Source: Bacteroidota bacterium
GTDB taxonomy: Bacteria > Bacteroidota > Bacteroidia > Bacteroidales > FEN-979
Assembly (NCBI GenBank): GCA_026391835.1
Contig: JAPLDF010000025.1
Coordinates: 1 to 64,000, forward strand
Reading direction: 5' to 3'
Length of the DNA stretch: 64,000 nucleotides
The notes under the pieces are model-generated. The model saw only the letters and a list, made by a program, of their open reading frames with translations, did not search any database and was not told where the DNA came from. The first letter of the stretch is position 1, and each line of letters starts with the position of its first letter. This document shows positions 13,864 through 33,095 of the stretch, in pieces. Both the position numbers and the translations under genes were made by a program.

Positions 13864-14034
13864 TAAAACGAAGTTGTTAACAAGGGGTTTACTTTTTGGT
13901 TTTTGGCGGATTAAGCGAAAATTGAAATTGAAAGATAATGTTATCAAAGATAGAGGTTTTGCACTGGACATGGAAATAGTTTCCGTTTATCGATGCCGAA
14001 AAGTAAAAAACACATATTAAAAATAATCGATCGT

Positions 14035-14508: not shown

Positions 14509-14516
14509 GCAAATTT

Positions 14517-14639
14517 GTGCCTTTAGGCACCGGATGTGGGTAGAATATTGTGTAAGGATCTGCTTATTACGTCCCGGATGGGACGTAATATTCTAACTGC
14601 CAACCAATTTGCTACCCATATACAATCCCTGACGGGATT
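14517..14639. repeat. Cluster of REP-like palindromes downstream of the transposase
   Basis: Three perfect stem-loops occur in 123 bases: GTGCCT-TT-AGGCAC (14517-14530), ATTACGTCCC-GGAT-GGGACGTAAT (14566-14589) and AATCCC-TGAC-GGGATT (14624-14639). TAGAATATT (14541-14549) and AATATTCTA (14587-14595), and GGGTAG/CTACCC further out, can also pair around the central hairpin. This layout is that of REP/BIME repeats mobilised by Y1 transposases. Confidence 0.8.
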
Positions 14640-14659
14640 GATGATAAATAAATTACACT

Positions 14660-14985
14660 TTATTTATATTTCCAGTTTCGTGTCTTCCCCTCCGCAGACC
14701 ATTCTACTGTTGTTGCTACTCTTTTTTTTCGGGTTGCCTCTGTTTTGGCTTCGTTGATCCACATGACATACTCCTTCCGCTGGGAATAGGAGAACTTGTC
14801 AAAAAACACCTGTGCCGCCAGGTTTTTACCGAGGGCTGCAAGGAGATCGTCGGGAACCACAAGTTCAGCTTTCTCTTTATCAGTAGGCTTTTTAGGAGTT
14901 ACCTTCACCCCCTGGTCATTCAGTTTCCTGGCTTCGCGAATTCAGCGGAAACCTCGATGTATTGGTCAATGCGTTTATCCTTCAT
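14660..14985 (-). pseudogene. DUF1801/YdeI-family protein with internal deletion
   Basis: Reading from the ATG at 14985 gives MKDKRIDQYIEVSAEFAKP, the standard start of this family, then GN and a stop. Shifting frame immediately afterwards gives ARKLNDQGVKVTPKKP, joined to the track ORF of 82 aa that contains the C-terminal YdeI/OmpD-associated region (FSYSQRKEYVMWINEAKTEATRKKR). Full members are close to 200 aa, so roughly 75-90 central residues, including most of the DUF1801 domain, are missing and the ends are joined out of frame. Its start codon overlaps the stop of the upstream ferredoxin gene (ATGA), so the two were once translationally coupled. Confidence 0.85.
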
Positions 14986-16043: not shown

Positions 16044-16191
16044 GAAGAACAAAAGTAATTATTTTTTAGCGCACCAAAAATATCTTCCAGGGGCCGGTTT
16101 CCTGAACCTGGGTCAGGGTTGATTTCATTTACTGGGTCATTGAACTGAAAACATTATTTACTTATGATCAACAGAGTAACCAGTAATTGAG

Positions 16192-16218: not shown

Positions 16219-17409
16219 ATGAATATTTTATATGAAATTTCTGCCAGGCTGCAGGAAGCGGTAAAGGTTGACTTTATTAGAAAAATCATTGATAAATTTG
16301 ATGAACCCGACCGGCTGATTGGGATCAAAGGACCAAGGGGTGTCGGCAAAACGACGCTACTGCTTCAATATTTGAAGTTGCACCAACATGATAATAAGAT
16401 CCTTTATATTTCGCTGGATGATCTTTATTTCACAGAAAATTCTTTTCTTGAAACGGCAGATGCTTTTATAAAAAATGGCGGCAATATTTTGTTGGTCGAT
16501 GAGGTCCATCACTATGAAAATTGGGCAAAAGAACTAAAAAATGCCTACGACAGGTATCCGGAATTAAAAATTATATTCACCGGCTCGTCGATGTTGCGTA
16601 TTGAATCGTCGCGGGGTGATCTTTCTCGTCGTGCAGTGATTTATTTTATGCAGGGGCTATCTTTGCGCGAATATATATGTTATACCGGGGGGCCTGAATT
16701 TCCGGTTTTTACCCTTCCACAGATTATGCAGGATCATCAGCACCTGGCTGAAATGGTATGGACCAGGATCAGGCCCATACAAAAGTTCAATGAATACCTT
16801 CAGCATGGCTGTTTTCCATTTGCATCCGAAAACATGGCTACCTATCCGTTGCGGCTGAAAGAAATTGTAAATGTTATACTGGAAGCAGACCTTCCTTACA
16901 TGGCAGAAATTGATTATTCGAAAATAGATAAAATAAAACAACTTTTATACATTATAAGCCGGAGTGTTCCGTTCAAACCCAATATAATCAAACTGGCCGA
17001 ACGCATCGGGATTGCACGTAATACCCTGAAAAACTATCTGCATTACCTTTCTGATGCAGGTTTGATCCACCTGATCTATAGCAATTCAAAAGGAATAAGC
17101 ATGCTTACCAAACCAGAGAAAATTTACATGTCAAATCCCAACCTGCTTTTTGCACTTGGATCATCAGGAACAGAGAAGGGAAACCTAAGAGAAACCTTTT
17201 TTGTAAACCAATTATCCACCAGTCATACTGTGCAATACCCAAAACAAGGCGATTTCATGATTGATGACAAATATATTTTCGAAATAGGCGGGAAAAACAA
17301 GGACAATTCTCAGATTAAAGACATTGAGAATGCTTTTCTTGCGCTCGATGATCTCGAATCAGGTTCGCTCAATCGAATTCCGTTGTGGCTTTTTGGATTT
17401 TTATATTAA
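16219..17409 (+). CDS. AAA family ATPase, AAA_14/DUF4143 type (second copy)
   Basis: P-loop ATPase of the same broad family as the gene at 143 but divergent. Walker A GPRGVGKTTLL lies at residues 38-48, Walker B LLVDEVHH at 91-98 and sensor FTGSSMLRI at 120-128. A winged-helix-like segment (LAERIGIARNTLKNYLHYLSDAG) follows and the C-terminal part contains DKYIFEIGGKNKD, the family's ExxxK-like end. 396 aa, normal. The neighbour downstream starts 34 bases after its stop and is unrelated in function. Its role is unknown; AT-richer coding sequence than the neighbours suggests an accessory, possibly transferred gene. Confidence 0.85.
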   Translation: MNILYEISARLQEAVKVDFIRKIIDKFDEPDRLIGIKGPRGVGKTTLLLQYLKLHQHDNKILYISLDDLYFTENSFLETADAFIKNGGNILLVDEVHHYENWAKELKNAYDRYPELKIIFTGSSMLRIESSRGDLSRRAVIYFMQGLSLREYICYTGGPEFPVFTLPQIMQDHQHLAEMVWTRIRPIQKFNEYLQHGCFPFASENMATYPLRLKEIVNVILEADLPYMAEIDYSKIDKIKQLLYIISRSVPFKPNIIKLAERIGIARNTLKNYLHYLSDAGLIHLIYSNSKGISMLTKPEKIYMSNPNLLFALGSSGTEKGNLRETFFVNQLSTSHTVQYPKQGDFMIDDKYIFEIGGKNKDNSQIKDIENAFLALDDLESGSLNRIPLWLFGFLY

Positions 17410-17443
17410 ATACCGGTACCAGAAAAATACAAATCTGCTTCGC

Positions 17444-19237
17444 ATGAGAACCCACTTTGTCCTGGTTTTAGTAACCATTTTGTTGATGAATTCCTGTTCC
17501 GGACCAGTATCGCGCAGGGATACAGCATGGACTGCCGACACTGCGGCCGTCAACAGGATGAATGACAAGATTTCCCTTCGTGAAATCACAAATCCTGATA
17601 GCGCAATGAACGTAGTTCTTCGTGCAACGGCATTGGCGAGGAAGATCGACTATCCCGCCGGATTGGCCTGGGCATTGTTTGAACATGGAAACCTGCTGTA
17701 CCAGGAAAACAGGTACAATGAGGCGATTGAAAAATACACGGCGGTGTTGAAAATGGCAAAGCAGATGCACATGACGTTGCTTTCTGCCGACTGCCTGGAG
17801 CGCATGGCCAGTGTACACCTTGCAACAGATGATCCGTCCCTGGCGCTTAAATTATACTATGATGCCCTGGTGCTCTATGAAAAGATCCCCGACAGCCTGG
17901 GCATTGCCAAAGTATACAACATCCTGGGGATCTATAAAACCGACACGAAAGAATATGACTCTGCAAAGGTTTACTTCGGGAAGGCGATTGCCATCAATGA
18001 ACACAAAAACCAGCAGTATCCCCTGATTGAAAACCGGGGAAACCTGGCCTGGATGCATGAAAAAATGGGGGATTTTAAAAAGGCGGAACAGATCTTCAAC
18101 GAAATAGTGGTTGAACTTACCGGTATGAAAGACAGCCTGAGCCTGCCGACGACCTATTTTAACCTGGCCACGCTGTACCAGGAGAAAAAGAAGTTCGACA
18201 CCACCCTCATATTCCTTGATAAAGCGTTGCGCATTGCAGAACCGGTGAAAGATACAATTCTTCTGTCCTCGCTGTACGGGAACAAAGGGGAGATTTTCTT
18301 TAAAATGGGGAAATATGATTCTGCTTCATGGTATTTAAAAAAATCGATAACATGTTCCGGGGCGATTGACGATGTTGAAACGGAGGCCCAGGCACTATCC
18401 TGGCTACTCAAGGTTGATTCGGTTACCGGGGATTTTAAAAAAGCCTTTGAGACCGGTAAAAGAATATTCGTATTAAATGATTCCGGTTTTCACCGGAAAC
18501 TTCGGAGCGAATTGAAAACCTCTGAGTTGCGTTATGAGAATGAACATCGTAAGGTTGCCATGGAACTTCAGCGCCAGAGAATCGAAACGGCCGGCAGGGA
18601 ACGCAAATTATTCATGATATTGTTCATCCTTTCAATAGCTGCCGGAGCCCTTATTGGCCTGGTTCTTGTCCTTGAACGAAAAAACAACAGGAAAAACAAG
18701 CAGATCAACCAAAACAGCTTAATGATCAATGATCTTCGGGTTGATAAAATCCTGAAGAACCAGGAAGTCGATCGGCTGAAAATGGAACAGGTCGAAACAG
18801 AACTGAAAAGCAGGGAACGGGAACTGGTCTGCAATGCATTGATGATCGAACAAAAAAATGAGTTCCTGAACGATATCAATAAAAAAATCCAGGATTTATA
18901 TCTTGAGCAACCCGACGTTGCCAAGGCGAAAATTGTGAACGAACTCATCACCTCAATAAAATTGCAGCTGAATAAGTCGGGAGAGGCAGACCTGTTCAAC
19001 CAGCAATTTGCCGTTGTTCATGAGAAATTCTATGCTGACCTGAAAAAAGCTCACCCGGGGCTTACCAGGTCTGAGATTAAATTTTGTGCCTATTTGCGGC
19101 TGAATCTTTCCGGGACCCAAATCTCAAACAGCCTGAACGTCACACCCGAAGCCATTAAAAAGACCAGGTACCGGATAAGGAAAAAACTGAGTCTTTCCCC
19201 GGAATGTTCCCTTGAAGATTATATTTCGGGATTTTAA
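17444..19237 (+). CDS. TPR-containing membrane regulator with C-terminal LuxR-like HTH
   Basis: One-protein signal transducer of a type common in Bacteroidota. I choose the ATG at 17444 (MRTHFVLVLVTILLMNSCSG), which gives a lipoprotein-like or membrane-targeting N-terminus; the longer track start overlaps the previous gene. Periplasmic TPR units occupy about 60-340 (for example LAWALFEHGNLLYQENRYNEAIEKY). A transmembrane helix follows at about 388-411 (FMILFILSIAAGALIGLVLVL), then a cytoplasmic coiled coil (415-520), then an HTH (540-597: LTRSEIKFCAYLRLNLSGTQ, ITxEAIKKTRYRIRKKL type). It stands directly upstream of the giant BNR protein on the same strand (176 bases apart) and may regulate that locus (inference). 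Confidence 0.85.
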   Translation: MRTHFVLVLVTILLMNSCSGPVSRRDTAWTADTAAVNRMNDKISLREITNPDSAMNVVLRATALARKIDYPAGLAWALFEHGNLLYQENRYNEAIEKYTAVLKMAKQMHMTLLSADCLERMASVHLATDDPSLALKLYYDALVLYEKIPDSLGIAKVYNILGIYKTDTKEYDSAKVYFGKAIAINEHKNQQYPLIENRGNLAWMHEKMGDFKKAEQIFNEIVVELTGMKDSLSLPTTYFNLATLYQEKKKFDTTLIFLDKALRIAEPVKDTILLSSLYGNKGEIFFKMGKYDSASWYLKKSITCSGAIDDVETEAQALSWLLKVDSVTGDFKKAFETGKRIFVLNDSGFHRKLRSELKTSELRYENEHRKVAMELQRQRIETAGRERKLFMILFILSIAAGALIGLVLVLERKNNRKNKQINQNSLMINDLRVDKILKNQEVDRLKMEQVETELKSRERELVCNALMIEQKNEFLNDINKKIQDLYLEQPDVAKAKIVNELITSIKLQLNKSGEADLFNQQFAVVHEKFYADLKKAHPGLTRSEIKFCAYLRLNLSGTQISNSLNVTPEAIKKTRYRIRKKLSLSPECSLEDYISGF

Positions 19238-19413
19238 CTGATTTACGGCTGCCATATTTTTAGTTGTCCGCTTTTTGTCCCCCTGACAGCGGTATATTAT
19301 TACCTGAAAAAAAATATTTTTGCTTTTTGAAAACCGCCGCTTTGGGAGAAATCCCCGGGCAACAGTTATTTACTTTTTTATGTCGCGATAAATCGATGTA
19401 CCAAATTAAAAAA

Positions 19414-22400
19414 ATGAATATGAAAAAAGCACTTTCCCTAATCTTGTCTCTTTTGCTGTCATTGCCAATGATGGCCCAGCAATGGACACAAAACCTTCCC
19501 CTGGATAAAGCCGGGAATGGAAGCCTGACACTCCACGATATGCAAAAAGCATTCAACGACTATTGGGCTCCCTTCAACGTGAAGGATGGGAAATATATCA
19601 ATGCAAATGGTGAATTGGTGAAAGCCCAGGGCTGGAAACAATTCAAGCGCTGGGAGTGGTACTGGGAGAACCGGGTAAATCCTGTAACCGGTGAATTCCC
19701 AAGTACTTCGGCATGGGAGGAATTGCAAAAATTCCAGGCCGATCATCCCGGATCAATCCAAAGCGCTTCAGGAAACTGGACATCAGCAGGGCCAACAGAA
19801 TCTCCAGGCGGATATGCCGGGTTGGGGAGGATAAACAGTGTTGCTTTTCATCCTACCGATAACAATATAATTTATACTGGCGCTGCTTCAGGAGGATTGT
19901 GGAAGACCACTGATGGTGGATCGACGTGGAGTGTTCTGAATGACAACCTTGCTGTTTTAGGTGTTAGTGATATATGTATAAATACAGGTTCACCCAACAT
20001 CATTTACATTGCGACAGGCGACAAAGACGGAGGCTCTGTTTGGAGTTTAGGAGGAGGCCAGGCTCGTGATAACAATAGCATCGGCATTATGAAATCAACC
20101 GATGGCGGAGCAACCTGGAACACAACCGGGTTGTCGTTTGCAACAAGCAGTCAGAAAGCAGTATTCCGCCTGCTCATGGATCCGGGCAATAACAACACTT
20201 TATATGCTGCCACTTCTTCGGGCTTGTATAAAACTACTGATGGAGGAAGTAATTGGAACAATATCTATTCTGCACAGATATTTTGCGACCTGGAATTCAA
20301 ACCAGGTACACCGTCAACAATTTACGGATCAAATAAAAGCGGAGATATTTACCGTTCAATAGACGCTGGAACAACCTGGACAAGCAGGCTTAGCACCACT
20401 TTTCTCAGGGTAGAAATGGCTGTTTCGCCAGCCAATGCCAATTATGTGTATGCAGTAATGCAAGACAACGCAACTCCTGATGAAAGCCCTGTATATAAAT
20501 CTACCGACGGAGGGGATAATTTTACCCGTGTTTTTACTTCCACAACCAAAAGCCTTTTAGGCTACGAATGCAATGGTTCGGATGTCAATAAAACTCAAGC
20601 CAGTTATGACCTTACTATTTCTGCTGACCCAACCGATGCCAATATTGTTTTTGTTGGCGGGATTAATGTTTGGAGATCAACAGATGGTGGAAGTACATGG
20701 AATATAAACACGCATTGGTCAAACACATGCAGTGGTACAGCTACAACAGTTCATGCAGACCAACATTGTCTTGCCTATCAGCCTGGTTCAAACCATCTTT
20801 TTCTGGGTAATGACGGAGGATTATATAAAACTACAGATGGTGGTGGCTTGTGGACATTTATCGGAAGTGGGATAGTTAGTTCGCAAGTATACAGAATAGG
20901 CGTTTCTCAAACAGTAGCCTCAGAAGTAATTGACGGATTACAGGACAATGGCACAAAGGTATTGTCGGGAGGAACCTGGGCCGATGTAAAAGGTGGAGAT
21001 GGAATGGAATGTATCATCGATTATACAAATGCAAACATACAGTATGGAACATATGTACAAGGCCAGATAGACAGAACCTCTGATCACTGGGCGAGTCGTA
21101 CGGCCATAGAACCAGCTGCTGCCGGATCAGGAGCCTGGGTGACTCCCTACATAATTGATCCGACCAATAACCAAACCTTGTATGCAGGATATGCTGATGT
21201 GTGGAAAACTACCAATAGCGGAACAAGCTGGACTCAAATTTCGACAATGAACACGTCAAATAAGATCCGTTCCATGGCGATTGCAGCTTCAAATACACAG
21301 GTTTTATATGTAGCTGATCCAGTAACGATGTGGAAAACAATTGACGGGGGAACGAGCTGGACCAATATTACGGCCGGATTGCCTGTAAGCACCAATGATA
21401 TTACCTACATTTCTGTTAAGGCGGACGACCCGCTTACTGTATGGGTCGCATTTGGTGAATATAATGCAAGTAAGGTCTATCAAACAACAGACGGAGGAAC
21501 GATCTGGACTGATATTTCAGCTGGACTTCCTTCAATACCTGTTATGTGCGTAATTCAAAATAAGCAATCAACATCAAGGGTGGATTTATATGCTGCTACA
21601 GATGTAGGGGTGTTTGTTAAAGCAGGGACTGCTGACTGGCAGATGTTCATGTCAGGGTTACCAAATGTGTTAACAACAGAACTTGAAATTTATTACGATG
21701 CCAATCCGGGAAACAGCAAGATTTATGCAGGAACCTATGGGCGCGGTATGTGGGTAAGCGACCTGTATGAATCAGGCATATTAAACCCGGCCAATGTGGC
21801 AGCAACGGCAAGCAGCGACACCCGAATTGATATTGCCTGGTCGCTTGTATCCGGAAATAATGTGATGCTTGCCTTCAGCACTTCGCCCACATTTGGCACG
21901 CCGGTAAACGGAACCACCTACACAACAACTATTCCCGGAGGGGGAACAGTACTTTACAATGGCGGCAATACAACCTTTAATCATACATCCCTGAATCCAA
22001 ATACGACCTATTACTACAAAATATGGTCCTATGACGGTAGTAAGAATTATTCTTCGGGAATTACAGCAAACAAGTCGACTTTTTGTACCCTGATCAGCGC
22101 CTTTCCCTGGATTGAAGGTTTTGAAGGAGGGGTAATTCCAAATTGCTGGACCCAGGAATATGTTAACGGGACAAACGCATGGAGTATTCAAGCCTCCGGA
22201 ATAAATGGTCATCCATCAGGAGCGCATGGTGGGACAAAAATCGTTCGTTGCAACGTACTCGTTTCCGGGGCAGGATATATAACAAAATTTGTTACACCGG
22301 CATTGCAGCTCTCATCAGTAGCATCCCCTTTTCTTACATTTTGGCATACACAGGATTTTTGGAGTCCCAACCAGGATGAGCTAAGGGTATACTATAAAAC

Positions 22401-24825
22401 TTCGGAAGAAGGAGCCTGGAATTTATTGGCTTCCTACACCAATTCGATTGCCAGCTGGACAAAGGAATCCATATCTCTGCCAAATGCTTCATCGGCCTAT
22501 TTTATTGCATTTGAATCCACTGTAAATGCTGGTTATGGCGTTTGTATTGATGACATCAGCGTATCCACTTCCCTGGCAGATTTTACTGCCAGCGGAAACC
22601 TAAGTTGTACGGGAAGTCTTACTGTAAATTTTACCGATAACAGTTTTGGTCCTAACGGTTCCTGGGCCTGGGATATTGACAACAACGGCACAACCGATTA
22701 TACAACGCAAAACCCAACGCACACATACAGCAGTCCGGGACTTTATTCGGTAAAACTGTCAGTAAACAATGGAGTTGCAGATACAATTAAGGAAAACCTG
22801 ATCCTTGTGATGAGCAGTGAGCCAACCGTAAACACGGGTTGTACTCTTGCTTCCAACAGCAATAACGGAAACGGTTATGGAATCGGGATTTTCAGATTTG
22901 CCTTGGGGAATATCGATTACACCACCTCAAATAATGATGGCTATTATCAAAATTATACATGCTCCAAATGGACCCGGCTGGAGTTAAATAAATTATACAA
23001 TATTACTATCAGGACTGGTACTTCTAACAATGAAGGCGCAAAGGTTTACATCGACTTTAATGATAACGGAACCTTTGAAGCCGGTGAGGCAGTGGTTTCA
23101 TTTCCGGCTAATAAAGATGGTACACGAACCCTGTCATTTACAACACCATCTTCCGGGGTTGTACTGGATAAAGGGCTTAGGCTAAGTGTACTGTCCAGAT
23201 TCGGTTCCATCCCGTCAACAGCTTGCGATATAAGCACCTATGGCCAGGCGGAAGATTATACCGTGTATTTTATCACCGATGCCACCTGGACAGGCACGGC
23301 AAGTACCGACTGGCATACACCAGGCAACTGGAGCTACAATGTTGTACCCGGCACAGGTATCAATACTTTGATTCCTACAGGCCTTTCCCATTATCCTGTT
23401 TTGACAGCAGATGTGACCTGTAAAAATCTCTATATACAATCCGGGGCATCTGTTACCGTAAATCCCGGCAAGGCACTCACAGTCAATGGCACGCTGAAAA
23501 ACTATTATGGTTATTCCGGTCTCCTCATTAAATCCGATGCAACAGGAACCGGTTCCCTGATCCATACAACGGCCAATGCAGATGGAACCTTCGAACGCTA
23601 CATGAACAATGCCGACTGGACAAATAGCAATGACGGATGGCATTTTCTTAGTTCTCCTGTCTCTTCACAGCCTGTAAGTCCTGCTTTCACGGCCGATCCC
23701 TATGATTTCTATTGCTGGTATGAACCGCAAAACCTGTGGGTGAATTTTAAGAATACCACCACTGCTCCAACCTGGAATACCGCCAATGGCTCCACCAATT
23801 TTACCGTGGGAAAAGGATACCTCGCCGATTATGATGCGGAAGGGGTTAAATTGTTTACAGGAAAACTGAATGTTGCGGATGAGGCAGTTTCAGGCCTTGC
23901 CATCACCGGCGGCGGAACGAACCGGAGCTGGCACCTGCTGGGCAACCCGTTTGGAAGTGCACTCACCTGGGATGCCTCCGGGGCCTGGGCCCTGAACAAC
24001 ATCTCGGGAGTCGCAAAGATCTGGAATGAGGCCAACCAAAGCTATTCCGATCTGACATCCTCCCCGCCTAGCATCATTCCCGCAACAAATGGTTTCATGG
24101 TCCAGGTAAACACGGGAACCGGCAGTCTTGTATTGCCGGCTGCAAAAAGGGTGCACTCTTCCGTGCCATTCTATAAATCAGCAACAGGAGGTCTTCTGCT
24201 CAAGGCTGTCAGTATTGCTGAAGGCAATGCCCAGGAAAGCCGGGTCATTCTCAATCAGGATGCCACCACAGGGTTTGACCTGATGTACGACGGGGAATTC
24301 CTTGCCGGACATGCCCCGGGGTTTTATTCGCTGGTAAATGGTCAGAAACTTTCGACCAATTCCATACCCTCAATAAACCTGCAGACAGAAATTCCATTTG
24401 GTTTTATCAAAAACGCCGGAAACGATTTCCGCATTGAAGTCACCGGTGTTGAAACCTTGAATGAAAAGGCTTACTTACAGGATTTAATGACCGGCACAGT
24501 GACCGATCTCAGTCTGCATACCTTTTATGCCTTTACATCTTCGGAGGGAGACAATCCGGACAGGTTCCTGCTGAAATTCGGCAATGTCGGCATTCCCGGC
24601 CACGAACAGCATTACCTGCGGGCCTGGTACAGCCAGGACAAACTATTCCTTTCGAATACAGGTGGCGAGGCATTTGTTGAAATATACAATATGGCCGGAC
24701 AGCAGGTATACCAGTGTACGGCCTGCAGCAACCCGGTTCAGCTATCACTTGGGGCCGGTATCTACTTTGCCAGGGTGACCTCGAAACAGCAGGTTAAAAC
24801 AGTGAAATTTATTGTAGGACAATAA
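19414..24825 (+). CDS. Giant T9SS-secreted BNR/sortilin-like multidomain protein
   Basis: Secreted protein of 1803 aa. Start chosen at 19414 (MNMKKALSLILSLLLSLPMMAQ), a clear signal peptide; the longer track start is not supported. Domains: an N-terminal region with GWKQFKRWEWYWENR (25-90); BNR/sortilin-like beta-propeller repeats with SGGLWKTTDGGSTW and variants (137-785); a fibronectin-III-like domain (790-885); a choice-of-anchor-J/MAM-like domain (895-1050, WIEGFEGGVIPNCW); a PKD domain (1055-1130); a GEVED domain (1133-1285, VYIDFNDNGTFEAGEA); a beta-rich part (1289-1730); and a type A T9SS C-terminal sorting domain (1733-1803, EIYNMAGQQVY, ending VKFIVGQ). Role probably adhesion, glycan or protein binding at the surface; enzymatic activity is not shown. 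Paralogue of 30492-33095. The propeller part is visibly AT-richer than the C-terminal third. Confidence 0.92.
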   Translation: MNMKKALSLILSLLLSLPMMAQQWTQNLPLDKAGNGSLTLHDMQKAFNDYWAPFNVKDGKYINANGELVKAQGWKQFKRWEWYWENRVNPVTGEFPSTSAWEELQKFQADHPGSIQSASGNWTSAGPTESPGGYAGLGRINSVAFHPTDNNIIYTGAASGGLWKTTDGGSTWSVLNDNLAVLGVSDICINTGSPNIIYIATGDKDGGSVWSLGGGQARDNNSIGIMKSTDGGATWNTTGLSFATSSQKAVFRLLMDPGNNNTLYAATSSGLYKTTDGGSNWNNIYSAQIFCDLEFKPGTPSTIYGSNKSGDIYRSIDAGTTWTSRLSTTFLRVEMAVSPANANYVYAVMQDNATPDESPVYKSTDGGDNFTRVFTSTTKSLLGYECNGSDVNKTQASYDLTISADPTDANIVFVGGINVWRSTDGGSTWNINTHWSNTCSGTATTVHADQHCLAYQPGSNHLFLGNDGGLYKTTDGGGLWTFIGSGIVSSQVYRIGVSQTVASEVIDGLQDNGTKVLSGGTWADVKGGDGMECIIDYTNANIQYGTYVQGQIDRTSDHWASRTAIEPAAAGSGAWVTPYIIDPTNNQTLYAGYADVWKTTNSGTSWTQISTMNTSNKIRSMAIAASNTQVLYVADPVTMWKTIDGGTSWTNITAGLPVSTNDITYISVKADDPLTVWVAFGEYNASKVYQTTDGGTIWTDISAGLPSIPVMCVIQNKQSTSRVDLYAATDVGVFVKAGTADWQMFMSGLPNVLTTELEIYYDANPGNSKIYAGTYGRGMWVSDLYESGILNPANVAATASSDTRIDIAWSLVSGNNVMLAFSTSPTFGTPVNGTTYTTTIPGGGTVLYNGGNTTFNHTSLNPNTTYYYKIWSYDGSKNYSSGITANKSTFCTLISAFPWIEGFEGGVIPNCWTQEYVNGTNAWSIQASGINGHPSGAHGGTKIVRCNVLVSGAGYITKFVTPALQLSSVASPFLTFWHTQDFWSPNQDELRVYYKTSEEGAWNLLASYTNSIASWTKESISLPNASSAYFIAFESTVNAGYGVCIDDISVSTSLADFTASGNLSCTGSLTVNFTDNSFGPNGSWAWDIDNNGTTDYTTQNPTHTYSSPGLYSVKLSVNNGVADTIKENLILVMSSEPTVNTGCTLASNSNNGNGYGIGIFRFALGNIDYTTSNNDGYYQNYTCSKWTRLELNKLYNITIRTGTSNNEGAKVYIDFNDNGTFEAGEAVVSFPANKDGTRTLSFTTPSSGVVLDKGLRLSVLSRFGSIPSTACDISTYGQAEDYTVYFITDATWTGTASTDWHTPGNWSYNVVPGTGINTLIPTGLSHYPVLTADVTCKNLYIQSGASVTVNPGKALTVNGTLKNYYGYSGLLIKSDATGTGSLIHTTANADGTFERYMNNADWTNSNDGWHFLSSPVSSQPVSPAFTADPYDFYCWYEPQNLWVNFKNTTTAPTWNTANGSTNFTVGKGYLADYDAEGVKLFTGKLNVADEAVSGLAITGGGTNRSWHLLGNPFGSALTWDASGAWALNNISGVAKIWNEANQSYSDLTSSPPSIIPATNGFMVQVNTGTGSLVLPAAKRVHSSVPFYKSATGGLLLKAVSIAEGNAQESRVILNQDATTGFDLMYDGEFLAGHAPGFYSLVNGQKLSTNSIPSINLQTEIPFGFIKNAGNDFRIEVTGVETLNEKAYLQDLMTGTVTDLSLHTFYAFTSSEGDNPDRFLLKFGNVGIPGHEQHYLRAWYSQDKLFLSNTGGEAFVEIYNMAGQQVYQCTACSNPVQLSLGAGIYFARVTSKQQVKTVKFIVGQ

Positions 24826-24841
24826 TTAACAACAGCAGGAC

Positions 24842-25066
24842 ATGAAAGTTAAATACATTCATCTGATCATTTTTGGTTTTTGGTTTTTTTCCTGCGTACA
24901 GGTATTTGCCCAGGCGCCACCGCCACCACCTGATGGAGCAAAGGGTTCCGCAAACAACAAGGCTCCGGGCGGAGGTGGCGCCCCGTTGGACGCGAGCCCG
25001 TTTGTCCTGCCCTTGCTTGCTGCCGGGTATGGGGCCGTAAAATGGTACAGGGCCCGGGTGGAATAG
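24842..25066 (+). CDS. Small secreted peptide with PID-CTERM-like sorting tail
   Basis: 74 aa protein with a signal peptide (LIIFGFWFFSCVQVFAQ), a Pro- and Gly-rich linker (APPPPPDGAKGSANNKAPGG), then GAPLDASPFVLPLLAAGYGA and a basic end KWYRARVE. The order of short (P-I/L-D) motif, hydrophobic helix and basic cluster matches the PID-CTERM type of predicted protein-sorting tail known from Bacteroidota. Almost nothing but the tail and signal peptide remains, so the mature product would be a peptide of about 25-50 residues. It starts 16 bases after the giant T9SS protein and is followed by the sensor kinase gene, so it is likely cotranscribed. Function unknown. Confidence 0.75.
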   Translation: MKVKYIHLIIFGFWFFSCVQVFAQAPPPPPDGAKGSANNKAPGGGGAPLDASPFVLPLLAAGYGAVKWYRARVE

Positions 25067-25131
25067 CTTAACTTTTCGTAAGTTTGACGCTTGGTTCTAC
25101 CTTCCGGCCGGTGTTGGCTTAATCGAATCGA

Positions 25132-28100
25132 ATGGCATTCCTGTATTTTTTCCCTGAGAACAAAGTTATTCGTGAATCATTGCGGGTGATTCTGTTATTT
25201 TCCTGGATCATGATCGCGGCATTTGCCGGTGCCGGCAACTTGAATCGCATTAGTAAAAGCACTTCCCAGCCTTGGTTTAACCATCTCACCAAAGAAAACG
25301 GCCTGCCCTCCAATACGGTTTATTGCGCCATCCAGGATTTCCAGGGATATATCTGGATTGGCACGACAAACGGCCTGGCCAGGTACGACGGCCATGACAT
25401 GAAAATCTTCCGCTCCATCCCGGGCGACAGCACTTCTCTTGTTGATAATATCGTTTATACCCTTTGCCAGGCAAGCGATTCAATGATCTGGATCGGCACA
25501 GGGAACGGGCTGAGCATCTACAACCCGTTTACCCGAAGCCTGCGGAATTTCCCGTTTGACAGGAAGAGACCCGGAGGTTTTCCGACACAGCGCGTAAATG
25601 GATTCTTCGAACTGTCAAAAGGGTCTGTGTGGATCGGTACGATGGAGGGGATGGTGCATGCAACCGGCAATGGAAGTCATTTCAGGCAGGTAAAGATAAA
25701 TGACTGTATTAAACCGGAAGACCGGGAGTACTCTTTTAACATTGTCACAGGCATCATTCCCCATCCCCGGAACCACAGGGCCTTCCTGGTTGGCACCGGC
25801 ATGGGGCTGGTTCTGTTCGATACCGTCACAAGCAGGATCATCCGGAAATATGACGGCCCTCCCGGTGTTGAATTGATCATCAGGGAGATGTTCCTCGATT
25901 CAAGCAGGTTGATCTGGGCATGCGGATGGGGTGTCGGGGTGGGGTGCTTCGACCTGGAGAAGGAGCAATGGAAAATCCATTCGCCCGAAAAGTGGGGGAT
26001 CACCATATTGAAAATGATGCCCAGGTCGCGCGACGAACTCTGGCTTGCAACAGATGACAGGGGGCTGGGTGTTTTCAATAAAAAGACGGGAGCATTCTCT
26101 TTTATTAAAAGTGATCCGAAAAATCCATGGTCCATCTCTTCCGACATGATCCAGGGGATGTCGTATTTCAACAACCGCCGCGACTTCTGGATCTGGGGCA
26201 ACGGGATCGACATGGAAAACAAGGATTTTTGTTCGTTTCAGCAGGTAAGGGTTCCCTATAAATTCTGGTGGATTTGTGATTTTTATAAAGAGCCGGCAAC
26301 AGGAAAATTATTTGTTGGGGCTTATGAGTGTAAGGGGATGCCTGTGCTCGATACGAAAACGCAGTCGTGGAGCCTGGTCCCATGCGACCAGCCGCTTTCC
26401 CGGCACGCCCTCTCCGTCACCGGGTTCTGCAACGATTCACAGGGGCGGCTGTGGGTAGCCACGCGCAACAACCTGTGTTATTATGAACCGAAACGGAAAA
26501 TCCTGAAGCTGTTCCGTACCCTGGATGGAAAACCACTTCAACTGACCGACCAGGTGGTTTATGGCCTCAATGAGGACCGGGAGGGTAATTTATGGGTGGG
26601 AACCCGCTTTGACGGAGTTGTAAGGATCAATAAAACCCGCGATAAGGCAGATTATTTCAGGCATATTCCCGGCGACGACCATTCTCTCCTGGCCGGAACC
26701 CATTATGCAGGAATCCAGACCGACCGCTTCAACCGGGTATGGCTGGGGTGCAGGTACGGTGTGAGCATCTATGATCCGGAAACAAAGATGTTCGACAACA
26801 CCCTTATGGATACCCTGGCTAAATACGGCATCAGGAAAACATGGATCAATGGCGTTGAAAAGGACTCGCTGGGCCGGATCTGGCTTTCAGTAGCGGGTGC
26901 CGGCCTGGTGCGGATTGAGATCCGTGCTGGCAGATCCTATGGGATCAGGTTGTTTTATTCAGGCAATGGGATTAACGACCCCGAAACAGGGTGGATTGCA
27001 AAAGATGACGGGGGTAATTTCTGGGTAACAAACTCCGGTTTGCTTCAGGTTGATCCATATCGCGAACGGTTTACAATTATCGACAACCAGAACGGGCTTC
27101 ACCAGGTTCCCGGCAGTTCGGGGAAGATTTATGTTGATCATGACGGAATTGTTTACGTGGGCGATTCCACCGGCTTTGAGATGAAAAATGTCAGCGATAT
27201 ACGGACACCTGAAAAAGTCATCCTCAATGTTGTCTTCGAATCCCTTGAAATCAACGGAAAGGTTGCCCCTGAAACCCTTTACCGGAAAAGCCCCGGCAGG
27301 ATGACCCTGCAGGCCGGCCAGAATAACCTTACCTTCCACTATACGGCAATCTGTTTTCACCATACCGGGGAGATCCATTACCGGTATAAGCTACTGGGGT
27401 ATGACCGTGAATGGATCTATACCGAAACATCCCGCGAAGCCCGCTATACAAACCTTCCGCCCGGGAAATATACCTTTGTCGTCGGTGCGACCCGGGGCGA
27501 CGGATGGCAGGTTTGCAGCGAAAAGATACAATTTGTCATCAAACCGTTTTTCTGGCAAACATGGTGGTTTATCCTTCTTTGCATTCTTGCATTGTTTGCA
27601 TTGTTTGTATTCATTTACAGGTACCGGGTAAACCAGCTGTTGAAAGTTGAACGGCTGCGCACCCGTATTGCGACTGACCTGCACGATGATGTAAGTTCTA
27701 CACTGAGCAGTATTTCCATTCTCAGCGACATCGTCGGCAGGCGACCTGACCACCCGAAATCTCCGGGAATGATCGGGGAAATCGGGAGCAGTGCCCGGGA
27801 AATGCTTGAACGGATCGATGACATCATCTGGACGGTGACACCGGCCAACGATAAATTCCAGGACCTGGAGCTGAGGATACGGGAATATGCAATCCCTTTG
27901 TTCGAATCAAAAAACATCCTGTTTCATTTTGACTTCCCCGAAAAACTGGCCGCCCTCAGGTTGCAGATGGAAACCCGGCGCAACGTCTACCTTGTTACCA
28001 AGGAGGCTGTCAATAACCTTATCAAATATGCACAGTGTGAGCATGCCCGTGTCTGTTTCAGTGAAGAACAGGGATACCTGGTTATGGAAATCAGCGACGA

Positions 28101-28248
28101 CGGCATCGGTTTCGACCCGGGCAAACCCACCGGCAGGAATGGGTTGAAAAACATGCTGAAACGGGCAAACCAGATCGGGGGGTCACTGGATATCCGGTCG
28201 CGTCCGGGTGCCGGAACACAAATCATCCTGAAAGTAAAACTCATATGA
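25132..28248 (+). CDS. Two-component sensor kinase with periplasmic propeller and Y_Y_Y domain
   Basis: 1038 aa inner-membrane sensor. An N-terminal signal/anchor (LRVILLFSWIMIAAFAGAG) precedes Reg_prop beta-propeller repeats (about 45-680; for example FNHLTKENGLPSNTV, GYIWIGTTNGLARYDG) and a Y_Y_Y domain (about 700-795, HYRYKLLGYDREWIY). A transmembrane helix (about 806-830) leads to a HisKA_3 domain with H851 in TDLHDDVSSTLSSISILSDI and an HATPase (ISDDGIGFDPGKP, NGLKNMLKRANQIGG). No receiver domain or AraC HTH is fused, unlike the hybrid sensors of polysaccharide utilisation loci. The NarL-type regulator gene follows after 93 bases and is the obvious partner. Ligand unknown; location between secreted-protein genes suggests it senses an extracellular compound or envelope state. 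Confidence 0.92.
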   Translation: MAFLYFFPENKVIRESLRVILLFSWIMIAAFAGAGNLNRISKSTSQPWFNHLTKENGLPSNTVYCAIQDFQGYIWIGTTNGLARYDGHDMKIFRSIPGDSTSLVDNIVYTLCQASDSMIWIGTGNGLSIYNPFTRSLRNFPFDRKRPGGFPTQRVNGFFELSKGSVWIGTMEGMVHATGNGSHFRQVKINDCIKPEDREYSFNIVTGIIPHPRNHRAFLVGTGMGLVLFDTVTSRIIRKYDGPPGVELIIREMFLDSSRLIWACGWGVGVGCFDLEKEQWKIHSPEKWGITILKMMPRSRDELWLATDDRGLGVFNKKTGAFSFIKSDPKNPWSISSDMIQGMSYFNNRRDFWIWGNGIDMENKDFCSFQQVRVPYKFWWICDFYKEPATGKLFVGAYECKGMPVLDTKTQSWSLVPCDQPLSRHALSVTGFCNDSQGRLWVATRNNLCYYEPKRKILKLFRTLDGKPLQLTDQVVYGLNEDREGNLWVGTRFDGVVRINKTRDKADYFRHIPGDDHSLLAGTHYAGIQTDRFNRVWLGCRYGVSIYDPETKMFDNTLMDTLAKYGIRKTWINGVEKDSLGRIWLSVAGAGLVRIEIRAGRSYGIRLFYSGNGINDPETGWIAKDDGGNFWVTNSGLLQVDPYRERFTIIDNQNGLHQVPGSSGKIYVDHDGIVYVGDSTGFEMKNVSDIRTPEKVILNVVFESLEINGKVAPETLYRKSPGRMTLQAGQNNLTFHYTAICFHHTGEIHYRYKLLGYDREWIYTETSREARYTNLPPGKYTFVVGATRGDGWQVCSEKIQFVIKPFFWQTWWFILLCILALFALFVFIYRYRVNQLLKVERLRTRIATDLHDDVSSTLSSISILSDIVGRRPDHPKSPGMIGEIGSSAREMLERIDDIIWTVTPANDKFQDLELRIREYAIPLFESKNILFHFDFPEKLAALRLQMETRRNVYLVTKEAVNNLIKYAQCEHARVCFSEEQGYLVMEISDDGIGFDPGKPTGRNGLKNMLKRANQIGGSLDIRSRPGAGTQIILKVKLI
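27578..27612. repeat. GCATTGTTT word repeat within the kinase membrane-helix codons
   Basis: The tract reads TTTGCATTCTTGCATTGTTT then GCATTGTTTGTATTC, the same words as in the arrays near ferritin and DUF3109. Here it encodes LLCILALFALFVFI of the transmembrane helix and keeps the frame. Confidence 0.65.
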
Positions 28249-28297
28249 TTATATGATTGCATCAGCACGTCATATATCGTAATATTGTACACCTCTT

Positions 28298-28334
28298 TCC
28301 CATTTTGCATTTTGATTTTTCATTTTATACCAGG
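28298..28334. repeat. Low-complexity 'cattttgcattttga' tract in kinase-regulator spacer
   Basis: The spacer between kinase and regulator holds iterated 'cattttgcattttgattttt' words, and just upstream a 'catatgattatatgattgcat' tract. Both are the short word repeats common in Bacteroidota intergenic DNA. They extend the track ORF of the regulator at its N-terminus without coding value. Confidence 0.5.
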
Positions 28335-28341
28335 TTTCTCC

Positions 28342-28977
28342 GTGCCCATCAAAGTTTCCATATACGAAGACAACGACTCCCTTCGGAAAAGCCTCTCACA
28401 CCTGGTGATGGGAACCGACACCATGGAACTTGCCGGCGCCTGGCCCGACTGTGCCACGCTGATGCAAAATTTCGAAGAGGGAAAGCCCGACGTGGTGGTG
28501 ATGGATATCGACATGCCGGGAATGAGCGGGATCGAGGCGTCTGCCATCATCAAGGCCAGTTTTCCCGAGATCCAGATACTGATCTATACCGTATTCAACG
28601 ACCGGCAGAAAGTGTTCGAGGCGCTGTGTTCAGGCGCAACCGGGTACATTCTCAAAAAATCGAATGCCATCCAGATCATCGAAGCAATTACCGATCTCTA
28701 TAACGGAGGCTCCCCCATGACCGGTGAAATAGCCCGCATGGTTATGGAGTTCTTTACAAAAAATCCGCACCCTGCTTCAAACGAATATTCCTTATCACCA
28801 CGGGAGGTGGAGATCCTTGCCTGCATCGTGAAAGGCGACAGTTACAAAATGGTCGCCGATTCCTGCTGCATATCCATCGGAACAGTGAGAACCCACATTA
28901 ACAGCATCTACAAAAAGCTTCATGTCAACTCCAAATCCGAAGCCGTCATCAAAGCCATGAAGGAACGGCTGGTGTAA
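28342..28977 (+). CDS. NarL/FixJ-type response regulator
   Basis: DNA-binding response regulator, partner of the preceding kinase. I choose the GTG at 28342 (VPIKVSIYEDNDSLRKSL), because upstream residues of the track ORF derive from a low-complexity tract. The receiver domain has acidic residues in YEDND, phospho-acceptor D55 in VVMDIDMPGMSG and Lys in GYILKKS. The C-terminal LuxR-type HTH (LSPREVEILACIVKGDSYKM ... VRTHINSIYKKLHV) is complete. 211 aa from that start, normal. Its targets may include the flanking secreted-protein genes (inference). Confidence 0.92.
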   Translation: MPIKVSIYEDNDSLRKSLSHLVMGTDTMELAGAWPDCATLMQNFEEGKPDVVVMDIDMPGMSGIEASAIIKASFPEIQILIYTVFNDRQKVFEALCSGATGYILKKSNAIQIIEAITDLYNGGSPMTGEIARMVMEFFTKNPHPASNEYSLSPREVEILACIVKGDSYKMVADSCCISIGTVRTHINSIYKKLHVNSKSEAVIKAMKERLV

Positions 28978-29021
28978 TACAATCATATCTTTATCCGATT
29001 GCCCTCCCCTTTGTTTCCAGC

Positions 29022-29029
29022 TATTTTTG
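29022..29029 (+). promoter_or_regulatory. Promoter -7 element for the secreted-protein pair
   Basis: TATTTTTG matches TAnnTTTG exactly, 15 bases upstream of the ATG at 29045. Overlapping it, TGACA (29028-29032) and TGTCA (29041-29045) form a 5-bp inverted repeat around the likely transcription start. Confidence 0.45.
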
Positions 29030-29044
29030 ACAAAATTTCCTGTC

Positions 29045-30484
29045 ATGAAAAAAATCATTTTCGTTTTAGCTGGTCTTTTAAGTTTTTTCAACCCTGGTTT
29101 TGCCCAGGTATGCATCAGCACCGACGGCAGCGCACCCGACCCTTCTGCCATGCTCGAAGTGCGGTCGTTCAGCAAGGGGTTGCTCCTTCCACGGATGACC
29201 AGCGGCAACAGGCCTGCCACTCCAGCCATGGGACTGGCAATCTACCAGGTTGACAATGGCCCGGGATTGTATTATTATGACGGAGCCGCCTGGCAAAAGA
29301 TGAGCCTGGCAGCATATGATTTCTGGAACCAAAGCGGTTCGGATATCTATTTCAATTCGGGGCGCGTCGGCATCGGCATTACCAACCCCGATTATCATGG
29401 GCTCAATGTCGTAAACTATGCGGGCGGCCGGGGAGCGGTAAGGGGGGCAGCCCAGATCGGGCAGACGGTATATACCATCGGATATCTTGGCCTTGTAAAC
29501 CCGACGGAACTCGCGTTGCCATTGTTTGTGAATTATGCGGGCGTGCTTGGAATCAAACCACCCGTGGGCTCTAACGGGGCTGCCGTTTATGGCTGGAACA
29601 ATGATGTCAATTCAATCAATTACGGCGGGGTGTTCTATGCCGACGGGATTAGCGGAAACACAAACTACGGGGTGTATGCGATTGCTAAAAAGGCCGGTCA
29701 GAATTTCGCCGGCTATTTCAAAGGCAGGGTATCGGTCGAAGGAAACAGCGGCCAGGGAGTTGGCAGCGATTCAACCGAATCGGTCTTCAAATCGCAGGTA
29801 AAGCATTCCCATGCTGTCGATACCAGGGCGGTGGAAGCCATTTCAAAACCCCAGCCGGGGTGGGGGATCGGCATTTACGGAGAAGGCGGCTATGTAGGCG
29901 TTTCCGGCTTTAATGATGCCTCGGGGTATTCATCCACTTCTTATGGGCTGATGGGACAATCCCTCGGTTATGGAGGGACCAGGATCGGCGTTTATGGATA
30001 CGCATATGGAGGGTCCAACGACTGGAGCGCCTATTTTAACGGGAAAGCCTATATCAGCAGTGAACTCCGGATCGGAGCCGAGACCGGCGCAACAGGCTAC
30101 AAGCTGTCGGTCCATGGAAAAATTGCGTGTACCGAAGTGCTGGTCCAGGATATCTCCGCGTGGCCTGATTATGTTTTTAACGAAAACTACCACCTGATGA
30201 GCCTTGAGAGCCTGGAACAAAACATCAGGAATAACGGGCACCTGCCGGGATTCCCATCTGCCGGGGAGGTTGAATCAGAAGGGTTGCACCTGGGATTGAT
30301 GCAAAAGCAGGTAGTCGGGAAAATTGAAGAACTCACCCTCTACACCATTGAACAGGGCAAACTGCTGAATGAACAGGCAAAACTGCTGCAGGAGCAGGGA
30401 ACGGCTCTCCGGGAATTAAAGCAGGAACTGGCGGAATTGAAAAAACAGCAGAAAGAACACCGGCCGGAATCCCATGTTAAATAA
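29045..30484 (+). CDS. Secreted repeat protein with S74-like coiled-coil C-terminus
   Basis: 479 aa secreted protein. Start at MKKIIFVLAGLLSFFNPGFAQ (29045), a signal peptide. After it comes CISTDGSAPDPSAMLEVRSF, a motif shared with the giant protein at 37711-42813 (INADGSQPDPSAMLDVKS). The middle (100-330) is Gly- and Tyr-rich beta sequence with repeats of GVYGxxY/GxGxYG type, as in tail-fibre-like proteins. The C-terminus has WPDYVFNENYHLMSLESLEQ and HLPGFPSAGEVESEG followed by a coiled coil (KIEELTLYTIEQGKLLNEQ). This ending is widespread in Bacteroidota secreted proteins related to the endosialidase-chaperone group. Role at the surface is unknown. Cotranscribed with the BNR gene that begins 7 bases later. 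Confidence 0.82.
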   Translation: MKKIIFVLAGLLSFFNPGFAQVCISTDGSAPDPSAMLEVRSFSKGLLLPRMTSGNRPATPAMGLAIYQVDNGPGLYYYDGAAWQKMSLAAYDFWNQSGSDIYFNSGRVGIGITNPDYHGLNVVNYAGGRGAVRGAAQIGQTVYTIGYLGLVNPTELALPLFVNYAGVLGIKPPVGSNGAAVYGWNNDVNSINYGGVFYADGISGNTNYGVYAIAKKAGQNFAGYFKGRVSVEGNSGQGVGSDSTESVFKSQVKHSHAVDTRAVEAISKPQPGWGIGIYGEGGYVGVSGFNDASGYSSTSYGLMGQSLGYGGTRIGVYGYAYGGSNDWSAYFNGKAYISSELRIGAETGATGYKLSVHGKIACTEVLVQDISAWPDYVFNENYHLMSLESLEQNIRNNGHLPGFPSAGEVESEGLHLGLMQKQVVGKIEELTLYTIEQGKLLNEQAKLLQEQGTALRELKQELAELKKQQKEHRPESHVK

Positions 30485-30491
30485 CTTCGTG

Positions 30492-33095
30492 ATGAAAACC
30501 AACCTGATATTGCTGCTGATTGCCCTCATTTTTGGTGCTGCCGGGGTTTCAGGGCAGCAGCGCGCATCCGATCTCTACCAGAACCCCGGCACGGATGATT
30601 TTGCGACCATTAAAACGAATGTTGAAAAATATTTCGCCGGGAAAGACAAAGGCAGGGGATCCGGGTATAAACAATGGAAGCGCTGGGAATTTGAGATGGC
30701 GCGGCGTCTTACCCCCGATGGCAAAGTCACCAACTGGACCCTCCGCAACTGGAATGAACATTATGCCTATCTCCGTTCACACGCAAACCTGGATGGGAGT
30801 GACCCCGATGCGACCGGCGGATACTGGGCCGGGCTCGGACCTTTTTCAACCATCAAGGGCGCCGGCCACAACCCGGGTATGGGACGGGTAAACTGCATCG
30901 CCTTTCATCCTTCCGATCCGCAAACCTTCTGGATCGGTGCGCCGGCCGGCGGGCTGTGGAAAACGACCGACGGCGGGGCATCCTGGACTCCCCTCACCGA
31001 CGGTATGCCCAGCATCGGTGTTTCAGGGATTGCGGTTGATTACACCAATCCCGATATCCTGTATATTCTTACCGGCGACGGGGATGGTGGCAATACATAT
31101 TTCACCGGGGTACTTAAATCTACTGATGGCGGAGAAACCTGGATGTCAACCGGGATCAGTGCCCCGGTTCAGAACCAGGTAAGAGGGTACAAGATGATCA
31201 TCCATCCTGCCGATCCGAATATATTATTCGTCGTGTTTAATGCAGGGATTTATAAAACATCAAACGGGGGGCAATCCTGGCAGCGGGTTCAGCCCGGAAA
31301 TTTCCAGGACATTGAATTCAAGCCCGGCGACCCTGCCATCATGTATGCTTCGGGCGGCACCGAATTTTTCCGTTCGTCAAATACCGGGTCATCCTGGGAA
31401 AGACTCCTCTACTCCGGGGTCCCCGAGCATGCAGAACGGATGGCCATAGGCGTATCCCCGGCCAGTCCTTCTGATGTTTACCTGCTTGCCGGTCCGCATA
31501 CCGGGATCGGATCCTTTACCGGGGTTTTCCGCTCCGAAAACAGCGGGATCATCTTCACGCCCAGGACAAAGTATCCCAACATCCTTGGAGCAGACGAATT
31601 TGGGCATGACAGCCTCGACCAGTCATGGTATGATCTTTCCATTGCGGTTTCCCGGGTGAACGTAAACAATGTCATGATCGGCGGAATAAATACCTGGGCA
31701 TCCTCAAACGGGGGTTATGACAGTACCGGCTGGCACCTTACCTCGATGTGGGCGAAAGCTGTTACCGGCTACGGCTGGACACATGGAGATATCCATAACC
31801 TGGACATCAACCCGTTAAACAACAACCTCTATTGCTGCAGCGACGGGGGAGTCTTCCGTTCAACCGATTTCGGCGAAAACTGGACTGACCTGTCCGCCGG
31901 CCTCGCCATCACCCAATGGTACCGCATCGCAGGATTTGAGGGGAATGCCAACCTGGTCATCGGTGGAACCCAGGACAATGGTTCGAATAAATGGGATGGA
32001 GGAACCTCGATGCTGCATATCCTCGGTGCCGACGGGTTCGATTGCATGATTGATGACTATTACAGCAATATCATGTACTATTCGGCGCAATCGGGTGACA
32101 TTTTTAAATCCGTGGACGGAGGGATCACCCCTGTGCAAATCACGCCCCCGGGATCAGCCGGCCCATGGCTGACACCCTACCTGATGGATCCGAATGACCA
32201 CCTGAAACTTTACGGAGGATATGTTGACGGGGTTTATAAAAGTAATTTCGGCGGAGCCAATTGGGTTAATATGGGGGTAAGCGGCTGCAGCGCCATGGCC
32301 ATGGGTACCGACAATTCGAACCGTCTTTATGCCGCTATGGATACGGGACAGCCGGTAAGGGTGCACCGGTTGTGGAGATCAGACAATGGCGGCAGTACCT
32401 GGCTTCAGGTCAGGACGGGGCTTCCCGACATCGACATCACTTTTCTTGCAGTCGATCCCGATAACTCATTAAGCGTTTATGCTGCGTTTCCAGGTTACAG
32501 TGCCGGTGAAAAGGTGTATCATTCAGTGAATGGAGGCGCAACCTGGACCAATATCAGCGGAACGCTGCCCAACGTGCCGGTCCACTGTATCGCGTTCCAG
32601 GACAACAATGGTTCTCCCGGGAATGCGCTCTATATCGGCACCGATATCGGCGTGTTTTACAGGGACGACAACCATACCGACTGGATCCCCTTCAGAAACG
32701 GCCTTCCGACCATCCCGGTTTTCGACCTGGAAATAAACATGACAGGCAGTGTCATTACCGCCGGTACCTTCGGAAGGGGATTGTGGCGTTCGCCGCTGTA
32801 TACCGAATGCCCCGCAGGATACACCCTTACACCTGCCAACAACCCCGGGAATCCGAATTATACCGGGTACCAGTTCTATGAAGCCGGCAACGACATCACA
32901 TCCACAAGAACCATCACCGGCGGGCCAGGCACAGATGTCACCTATAAATCAAATAATTATGTAAAGCTGCTCACCGGGTTTCATGCCCGGGAACACAATG
33001 TATTCCGTGCCACCCTCGGGCCGTGCAATACAGGCACTCCGGGACAGAACACGGTTATCCGGGTAAAAGGCAGGTATGCCGGGGAACTGCCCTGA
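30492..33095 (+). CDS. Secreted BNR/sortilin-like protein (paralogue of 19414-24825)
   Basis: 867 aa. Start chosen at MKTNLILLLIALIFGAAGVSGQQ (30492), a signal peptide; the track start lies inside the previous gene. An N-terminal region with GYKQWKRWEFEMARR (about 55-70) corresponds to that of the giant paralogue. BNR repeats such as AGGLWKTTDGGASWTPL run from about 125 to 765. The C-terminal 90 residues (CPAGYTLTPANNPGNPNYTG ... ATLGPC) resemble the beta-rich C-terminal domains that close other secreted Bacteroidota proteins, but there is no type A T9SS tail. It may use another sorting signal or be released to the periplasm. Function unknown; the propeller suggests binding of proteins or glycans. 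Confidence 0.88.
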   Translation: MKTNLILLLIALIFGAAGVSGQQRASDLYQNPGTDDFATIKTNVEKYFAGKDKGRGSGYKQWKRWEFEMARRLTPDGKVTNWTLRNWNEHYAYLRSHANLDGSDPDATGGYWAGLGPFSTIKGAGHNPGMGRVNCIAFHPSDPQTFWIGAPAGGLWKTTDGGASWTPLTDGMPSIGVSGIAVDYTNPDILYILTGDGDGGNTYFTGVLKSTDGGETWMSTGISAPVQNQVRGYKMIIHPADPNILFVVFNAGIYKTSNGGQSWQRVQPGNFQDIEFKPGDPAIMYASGGTEFFRSSNTGSSWERLLYSGVPEHAERMAIGVSPASPSDVYLLAGPHTGIGSFTGVFRSENSGIIFTPRTKYPNILGADEFGHDSLDQSWYDLSIAVSRVNVNNVMIGGINTWASSNGGYDSTGWHLTSMWAKAVTGYGWTHGDIHNLDINPLNNNLYCCSDGGVFRSTDFGENWTDLSAGLAITQWYRIAGFEGNANLVIGGTQDNGSNKWDGGTSMLHILGADGFDCMIDDYYSNIMYYSAQSGDIFKSVDGGITPVQITPPGSAGPWLTPYLMDPNDHLKLYGGYVDGVYKSNFGGANWVNMGVSGCSAMAMGTDNSNRLYAAMDTGQPVRVHRLWRSDNGGSTWLQVRTGLPDIDITFLAVDPDNSLSVYAAFPGYSAGEKVYHSVNGGATWTNISGTLPNVPVHCIAFQDNNGSPGNALYIGTDIGVFYRDDNHTDWIPFRNGLPTIPVFDLEINMTGSVITAGTFGRGLWRSPLYTECPAGYTLTPANNPGNPNYTGYQFYEAGNDITSTRTITGGPGTDVTYKSNNYVKLLTGFHAREHNVFRATLGPCNTGTPGQNTVIRVKGRYAGELP

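Follow-up and report, generated by a model that had tools for sequence, protein, structure and literature searches.

Two probable neighboring modules in a Bacteroidales surface-protein and signaling block, and the pairing of a PID-CTERM-like peptide with a RemA-like adhesin

Introduction

Do surface-protein genes and signaling genes that lie side by side on one strand form a single sensing machine? The question is raised by a block in a 64,000-nucleotide stretch of Bacteroidales DNA (assembly GCA_026391835.1, contig JAPLDF010000025.1; hereafter, the window), in which a propeller histidine kinase and its response regulator lie between two long secreted BNR-repeat proteins, BNR1 and BNR2. An initial annotation, made from the letters of the window and their translations, proposed an export-coupled sensing system whose kinase would monitor the surface proteins or what they bind. 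Our analysis indicates that the block is probably two neighboring modules and not one sensing machine, the upstream module linking a small peptide, an adhesin of the type IX secretion system (T9SS), and an exosortase. We consider the peptide-adhesin pairing the more interesting outcome, and below we infer a mechanism for it.

Results

Gene content of the block

Open reading frames and domain matches agreed with the initial annotation in gene content, strand, and order, which runs TPR-LuxR regulator, BNR1, peptide, kinase, regulator, 485-aa protein, BNR2 (Table 1). A domain search of the block proteins also bore out its statement that SusC/D, glycoside hydrolases, and hybrid sensors are absent. 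The tail of BNR1 contains a T9SS type A sorting domain (TIGR04183, 34.8 bits; cutoff, 23) and scores 21.2 bits against Pfam PF18962, under the cutoff of 27. The helix-turn-helix of the TPR-LuxR protein was assigned by sequence reading together with BT3442/FimS-like partial matches. The 74-aa peptide has a signal peptide, a PPPPP stretch, the residues G-A-P-L-D, a membrane helix, and a basic end, and the kinase consists of Reg_prop propellers followed by Y_Y_Y, HisKA_3, and HATPase domains. The 485-aa protein had no match in Pfam, NCBIfam, or PDB; it resembles tail-fiber-like proteins of Bacteroidota. Signal peptides were called throughout with a simple homemade hydrophobicity rule, gene starts were set at the first start codon, and the genomes compared are mostly fragmented assemblies.

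Table 1. Features of the block, with positions in the window
Feature	Position	Strand	Basis or remarks
AAA_14/DUF4143 ATPase	16219..17409	+	Pfam; opens the block missing from orthologous loci
Membrane TPR regulator with C-terminal LuxR-like helix-turn-helix	17444..19237	+	Domain matches
BNR1, T9SS surface protein, 1853-aa frame	19264..24825	+	BNR/Sortilin-Vps10 N-terminal part, GEVED, PKD, RemA/RemZ-like C-terminal region
BNR1 C-terminal region ("CMOD"), ~540 aa including T9SS tail	23200..24822	+	Common to all proteins directly before peptides in this genome
PID-CTERM-like mini-protein, 74 aa; predicted exosortase target, partner of BNR1	24842..25066	+	
TAAGTTTG, match to Bacteroidota -7 promoter element, in the gap between the peptide and kinase genes	25079..25086	+	Weak evidence
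Propeller/Y_Y_Y sensor histidine kinase, non-hybrid, HisKA_3	25132..28248	+	
NarL-type response regulator (receiver and GerE), kinase partner	28285..28977	+	
Secreted tail-fiber-like protein, 485 aa; first cargo gene	29027..30484	+	
BNR2, secreted Sortilin-Vps10/BNR protein, 873 aa, GCX_COOH tail; second cargo gene	30474..33095	+	

The motif K-Q-(F/W)-K-R-W-E, pointed out earlier as common to the two BNR proteins, is present in both (KQFKRWE in BNR1 and KQWKRWE in BNR2). BNR proteins encoded at other places, both here and in related genomes, carry KRWE-type motifs too; the motif is thus a hallmark of the family, and we rejected it as a local link between BNR1 and BNR2. A role for the BNR proteins as GH74 enzymes was rejected because the catalytic Asp is absent: in the alignment, the GH74 segment R-T-D-I-G-G, whose Asp we take to be the first catalytic residue, is replaced by A-P-A-G-G in BNR2 and A-A-S-G-G in BNR1. 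Neither the C-terminal region of BNR1 nor the peptide was found in any BNR gene sampled from close relatives.

Elsewhere in the window, positions 33413 to 36997 encode an SNF2 helicase with SWIM and DUF3670 domains that resembles a model for pilus-regulating Snf2 helicases (384 bits, under its cutoff). Two gene pairs look toxin-antitoxin-like by sequence, one MazF-like (43893 to 44511) and one HigBA-like (51124 to 51743).

Peptide-adhesin pairs in this genome

Ten PID-type peptides are encoded in the genome; in every case, the gene immediately before codes for a long secreted protein that matches the last ~500 residues of BNR1. Searching the genome with this C-terminal region retrieved 15 proteins, of which 10 have a peptide next, 2 lie in tandem ahead of a protein-peptide pair, and 3 have none; with a peptide next to only 10 of 15, we rejected the idea that every protein bearing the region needs one. 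The front parts of these proteins vary (BNR, YDG, fn3, or nothing known), and the C-terminal region matches RemA (E = 2.7e-51) and RemZ (E = 8.5e-42) of Flavobacterium johnsoniae, the latter of which has been trapped in the T9SS translocon (PMC10994853). Across the 10 pairs, peptide distances correlate with partner distances (Mantel r = 0.43, p = 0.003), as expected if the pairs are inherited together; taken alone, the correlation is not evidence of contact. The whole genome (G000) holds at least 150 T9SS type A tails, and the peptide partners are not among the 150 matches listed, suggesting that they carry a divergent subtype of tail.

The TPR-LuxR protein is likely to be the regulator of BNR1, given the surroundings of its relatives. 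Eight loci of such relatives were read (L254, L272, L274, L275, L277, L278, L279, and L281); they mostly adjoin a co-directional gene for a long secreted protein, often with a frame of 60 to 90 aa in between.

The exosortase link across the class

The enzyme-tag system to which these peptides point is already catalogued, in NCBI models for PID-CTERM, exosortase X (XrtX), and an associated protein. Most of the peptides carry a P-[ILV]-D motif, a helix, and a basic tail behind the signal peptide, and the window peptide reads A-P-L-D at the aligned position. A Cys pair (e.g., CWPPPC) just before the PID motif was seen in 36 of 83 peptides from loci L190 to L249 and is absent from the peptides of this genome.

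The window peptide did not match the PID-CTERM model (NF046080) at an E value of 10, a paralogue in the same genome scored 17.8 bits against a cutoff of 26, and two peptides from other genomes scored 44 to 45 bits. This genome has three exosortase-domain matches, of which the one most like XrtX scores 82.5 bits (cutoff, 170) and another is XrtH; the XrtX-like exosortase gene lies tail-to-tail with one of the peptide genes. With the peptide missed by its model and the enzyme under the XrtX cutoff, membership of the window peptide in the XrtX/PID-CTERM system is assigned by context and not by those tests, and by context it is likely.

The peptide occurs in 101 of the 395 genomes surveyed and in 55 of 197 genera. 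An exosortase domain is present in 96 of the 101 peptide-positive genomes versus 136 of the 294 peptide-negative ones, a difference that shared ancestry inflates. Among the fetched loci, which were chosen by peptide score and family spread and so do not yield an unbiased rate, 44 of 72 peptides, from about 20 families, are immediately preceded by a RemA-like region encoded on the same strand, in most cases less than 100 bases away; the other 28 have no C-terminal-region protein adjoining. For 35 of the 72 peptides, the locus also encodes an exosortase, typically exosortase X, and a Wzc-like exopolysaccharide kinase is encoded in 23 of the loci. For six of seven exosortases tested, XrtX (NF046081) was the best family or close to it, with two over its cutoff, and two tested neighbors matched the XrtX-associated membrane protein, under the cutoff of that model. 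The best 150 class-wide matches to the C-terminal region, a list compiled independently of the peptide, include 7 with an exosortase domain ~0.5 to 0.7 kb downstream on the same strand and 19 with a peptide (counted against a partial list of peptide places). The region is also found without a peptide.

This linkage to and co-occurrence with exosortases, together with the P-[ILV]-D motif followed by a helix and basic tail in most peptides, makes it rather unlikely that the peptide instead helps its RemA-like partner to assemble, as a small assembly factor or chaperone of the inner membrane that no exosortase ever cuts, even if such a role would suit both the placement of each peptide of this genome behind its own partner gene and the score of the window peptide under the NCBI model. 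We retain the reading of the peptide as a predicted exosortase target. The literature that we searched contained no published account of PID-CTERM, exosortase X, or their substrates and no published link between PID-CTERM or exosortase X and RemA-like T9SS proteins, although such a link may exist beyond it.

The kinase-regulator pair and its cargo

Downstream of the peptide, a different rule holds. We defined the kinase subfamily at 43% identity or more, which includes a second copy in this genome. The next gene of at least 150 aa behind the regulator is co-directional and encodes a secreted protein in 12 of 12 subfamily loci, versus 9 of 72 genes lying upstream. The binomial p of 1.5e-11 for this kinase-cargo pairing overstates independence, since the loci come from few, related genomes. 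The cargo varies between loci. The 485-aa protein and BNR2 also recur as a pair with no kinase in the stretch read, twice in genome G395 and once each in G397, G401, and a short contig of this genome (C66). Varying cargo and a pair that recurs alone indicate that the kinase and regulator are the constant part and the cargo the exchangeable one.

The sensor part of the kinase matches Bacteroides hybrid sensors of the BT4663 type (PDB 4a2l, E = 3.5e-57), and its core matches DesK-type kinases. This resemblance, and the fading of the cargo rule in kinases further removed from the subfamily (1 of 4 and 6 of 13), would be expected if the pair were a nutrient sensor of the hybrid-two-component type with incidental neighbors, a possibility that we consider unlikely in view of the 12 of 12 subfamily loci in which a secreted cargo follows while its identity varies. 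The match to the -7 promoter element between peptide and kinase is not conserved in relatives, and a promoter element common to the kinases was rejected, being seen at 4 of 12 loci versus 1.7 expected.

Several related arrangements were seen. In one case (L063/L068), two kinase cassettes lie on one contig, and the regulator of the second is split into two frames; at L141, in genome G129, the kinase itself is in two frames. Loci L284, L285, L286, and L143 hold a conserved surface cluster of the 485-aa tail-fiber-like protein and BNR2, accompanied in most by a ~158-aa protein and a ~490-aa protein with a T9SS tail. In the window, a 1700-aa secreted protein is encoded on the opposite strand at 37711 to 42813, and segments of it recur in the cargo of kinase cassettes.

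Orthologous loci and the two probable modules

We read 10 loci of close kinase relatives (43 to 72% identity) from metagenome assemblies of uncultured Bacteroidales and Bacteroidetes. Kinase, regulator, and then long secreted proteins follow one another in all 10, and in none are the genes upstream of the kinase those of the window block. At two loci (L061 and L062), the kinase occupies the same chromosomal place, adjoining relatives of the window genes at 12744 to 16052 (68 to 97% identity where matched). Both lack the ATPase, TPR-LuxR, BNR1, and peptide genes, and at this same place the cargo differs as well. The corresponding 9-kb block of the window has a GC content of ~42 to 46%, versus ~50%. 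From its absence at L061 and L062 and its lower GC content, the 9-kb block is best read as an insertion in the lineage of the window. A search for insertion-end repeats around it yielded nothing convincing. A short IS200/REP-type transposase-like frame, recognized by reading its sequence, lies near the edge of the variable region (14173 to 14508). A second AAA_14/DUF4143-type ATPase, assigned by resemblance, is encoded at 143 to 1267; the one at 16219 to 17409 was assigned by Pfam.

Given the orthologous loci without the upstream genes, we rejected a single conserved unit, and one export-coupled sensing unit whose kinase watches over the flanking surface proteins, BNR1 as well as those downstream, is very improbable: every gene does lie on one strand, secreted proteins do come after kinase-regulator pairs, and PorA, a C-terminal-domain protein, is reported to affect PorXY-SigP signaling in Porphyromonas gingivalis (PMC7712824), but BNR2 and the 485-aa gene are found together elsewhere without the kinase, and the peptide always follows a RemA-like region in this genome, its other 9 loci having no kinase of this type. 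What survives of the initial proposal is the coupling of kinase and regulator to downstream secreted genes in the 12 close loci and the frequent placement of TPR-LuxR relatives beside a co-directional gene for a long secreted protein. Its single unit is not supported, as nothing is conserved upstream of the kinase and the peptide goes with the C-terminal region of BNR1 and not with the kinase. We found no evidence for monitoring of the surface proteins by the kinase, and conservation of the full order (TPR-LuxR, BNR, peptide, kinase, regulator) across several genera, put forward as a check, was not found.

Discussion

Building on the observed gene content, pairings, conservation, and co-occurrence, we postulate that module A (16219 to 25066) is an insertion carrying the RemA/RemZ-type T9SS adhesin BNR1, its own TPR-LuxR regulator, and a PID-CTERM-like mini-protein. 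BNR1 would leave the cell through the T9SS by means of its C-terminal tail. The mini-protein would be exported by Sec and stay anchored in the inner membrane through its one helix, where an XrtX-type exosortase may cut it at the P-L-D motif. The cut would release or conjugate the short Pro/Gly-rich part, which could then act in trans on behalf of the neighboring adhesin, perhaps linking it to exopolysaccharide or to some other polymer of the cell surface. We offer this detailed chemistry as a tentative possibility. Similarly speculative is a split sorting of the adhesin, in which a T9SS signal takes its C terminus and a separate mini-protein with an exosortase tag serves it; if that were true, exosortase and type IX secretion would act together on a single surface structure, and different adhesins of one cell would have dedicated peptides.

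In module B (25132 to 33095), the propeller kinase may sense a periplasmic ligand and, through the NarL-type regulator, control the secreted genes behind it, here those for the 485-aa protein and BNR2. The findings also point to a tendency of surface-protein genes in these genomes to come with a local regulator of their own.

The pairing suggests a way in which exosortase X of Bacteroidia might be linked to type IX secretion. In F. johnsoniae, exosortases influence attachment and biofilm, and a study of XrtF in that species left the substrates to future work (PMC10936215). The presence of PID-type peptides with RemA/RemZ-like T9SS proteins in ~20 families points to candidate substrates and partners, and through the pairing, the meeting of the two export routes can be tested directly.

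Module A resembles the XrtX/PID-CTERM system (NCBIfam NF046080, NF046081, and NF046082) in the layout of its peptide, with a signal peptide, a Pro/Gly stretch, a PID-type motif, a helix, and a basic tail, and in the presence of an XrtX-like exosortase in the genome and, across the class, often in the locus. It differs in that the window peptide and the enzyme of this genome score under the curated cutoffs and in that the genome has ten peptide-adhesin pairs at scattered places and not a single exosortase locus that holds them. With the T9SS adhesins RemA and RemZ of F. johnsoniae (PDB 8gl6 and 8gl8), BNR1 shares the ~540-residue C-terminal region that includes the T9SS tail, whereas the BNR/Sortilin, GEVED, and PKD parts in front are its own.

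Module B has the double-propeller and Y_Y_Y sensor of Bacteroides hybrid sensors (BT4663, PDB 4a2l). Unlike them, it has a separate NarL-type regulator in place of a fused receiver/AraC part, and it lacks SusC/D and glycoside hydrolases. It also recalls the control of the T9SS by PorXY and SigP, in that two-component control is tied to type IX secretion; in contrast to that system, the block has neither a PorX-type regulator nor a sigma factor, and what would be controlled is local cargo and not the secretion machinery.
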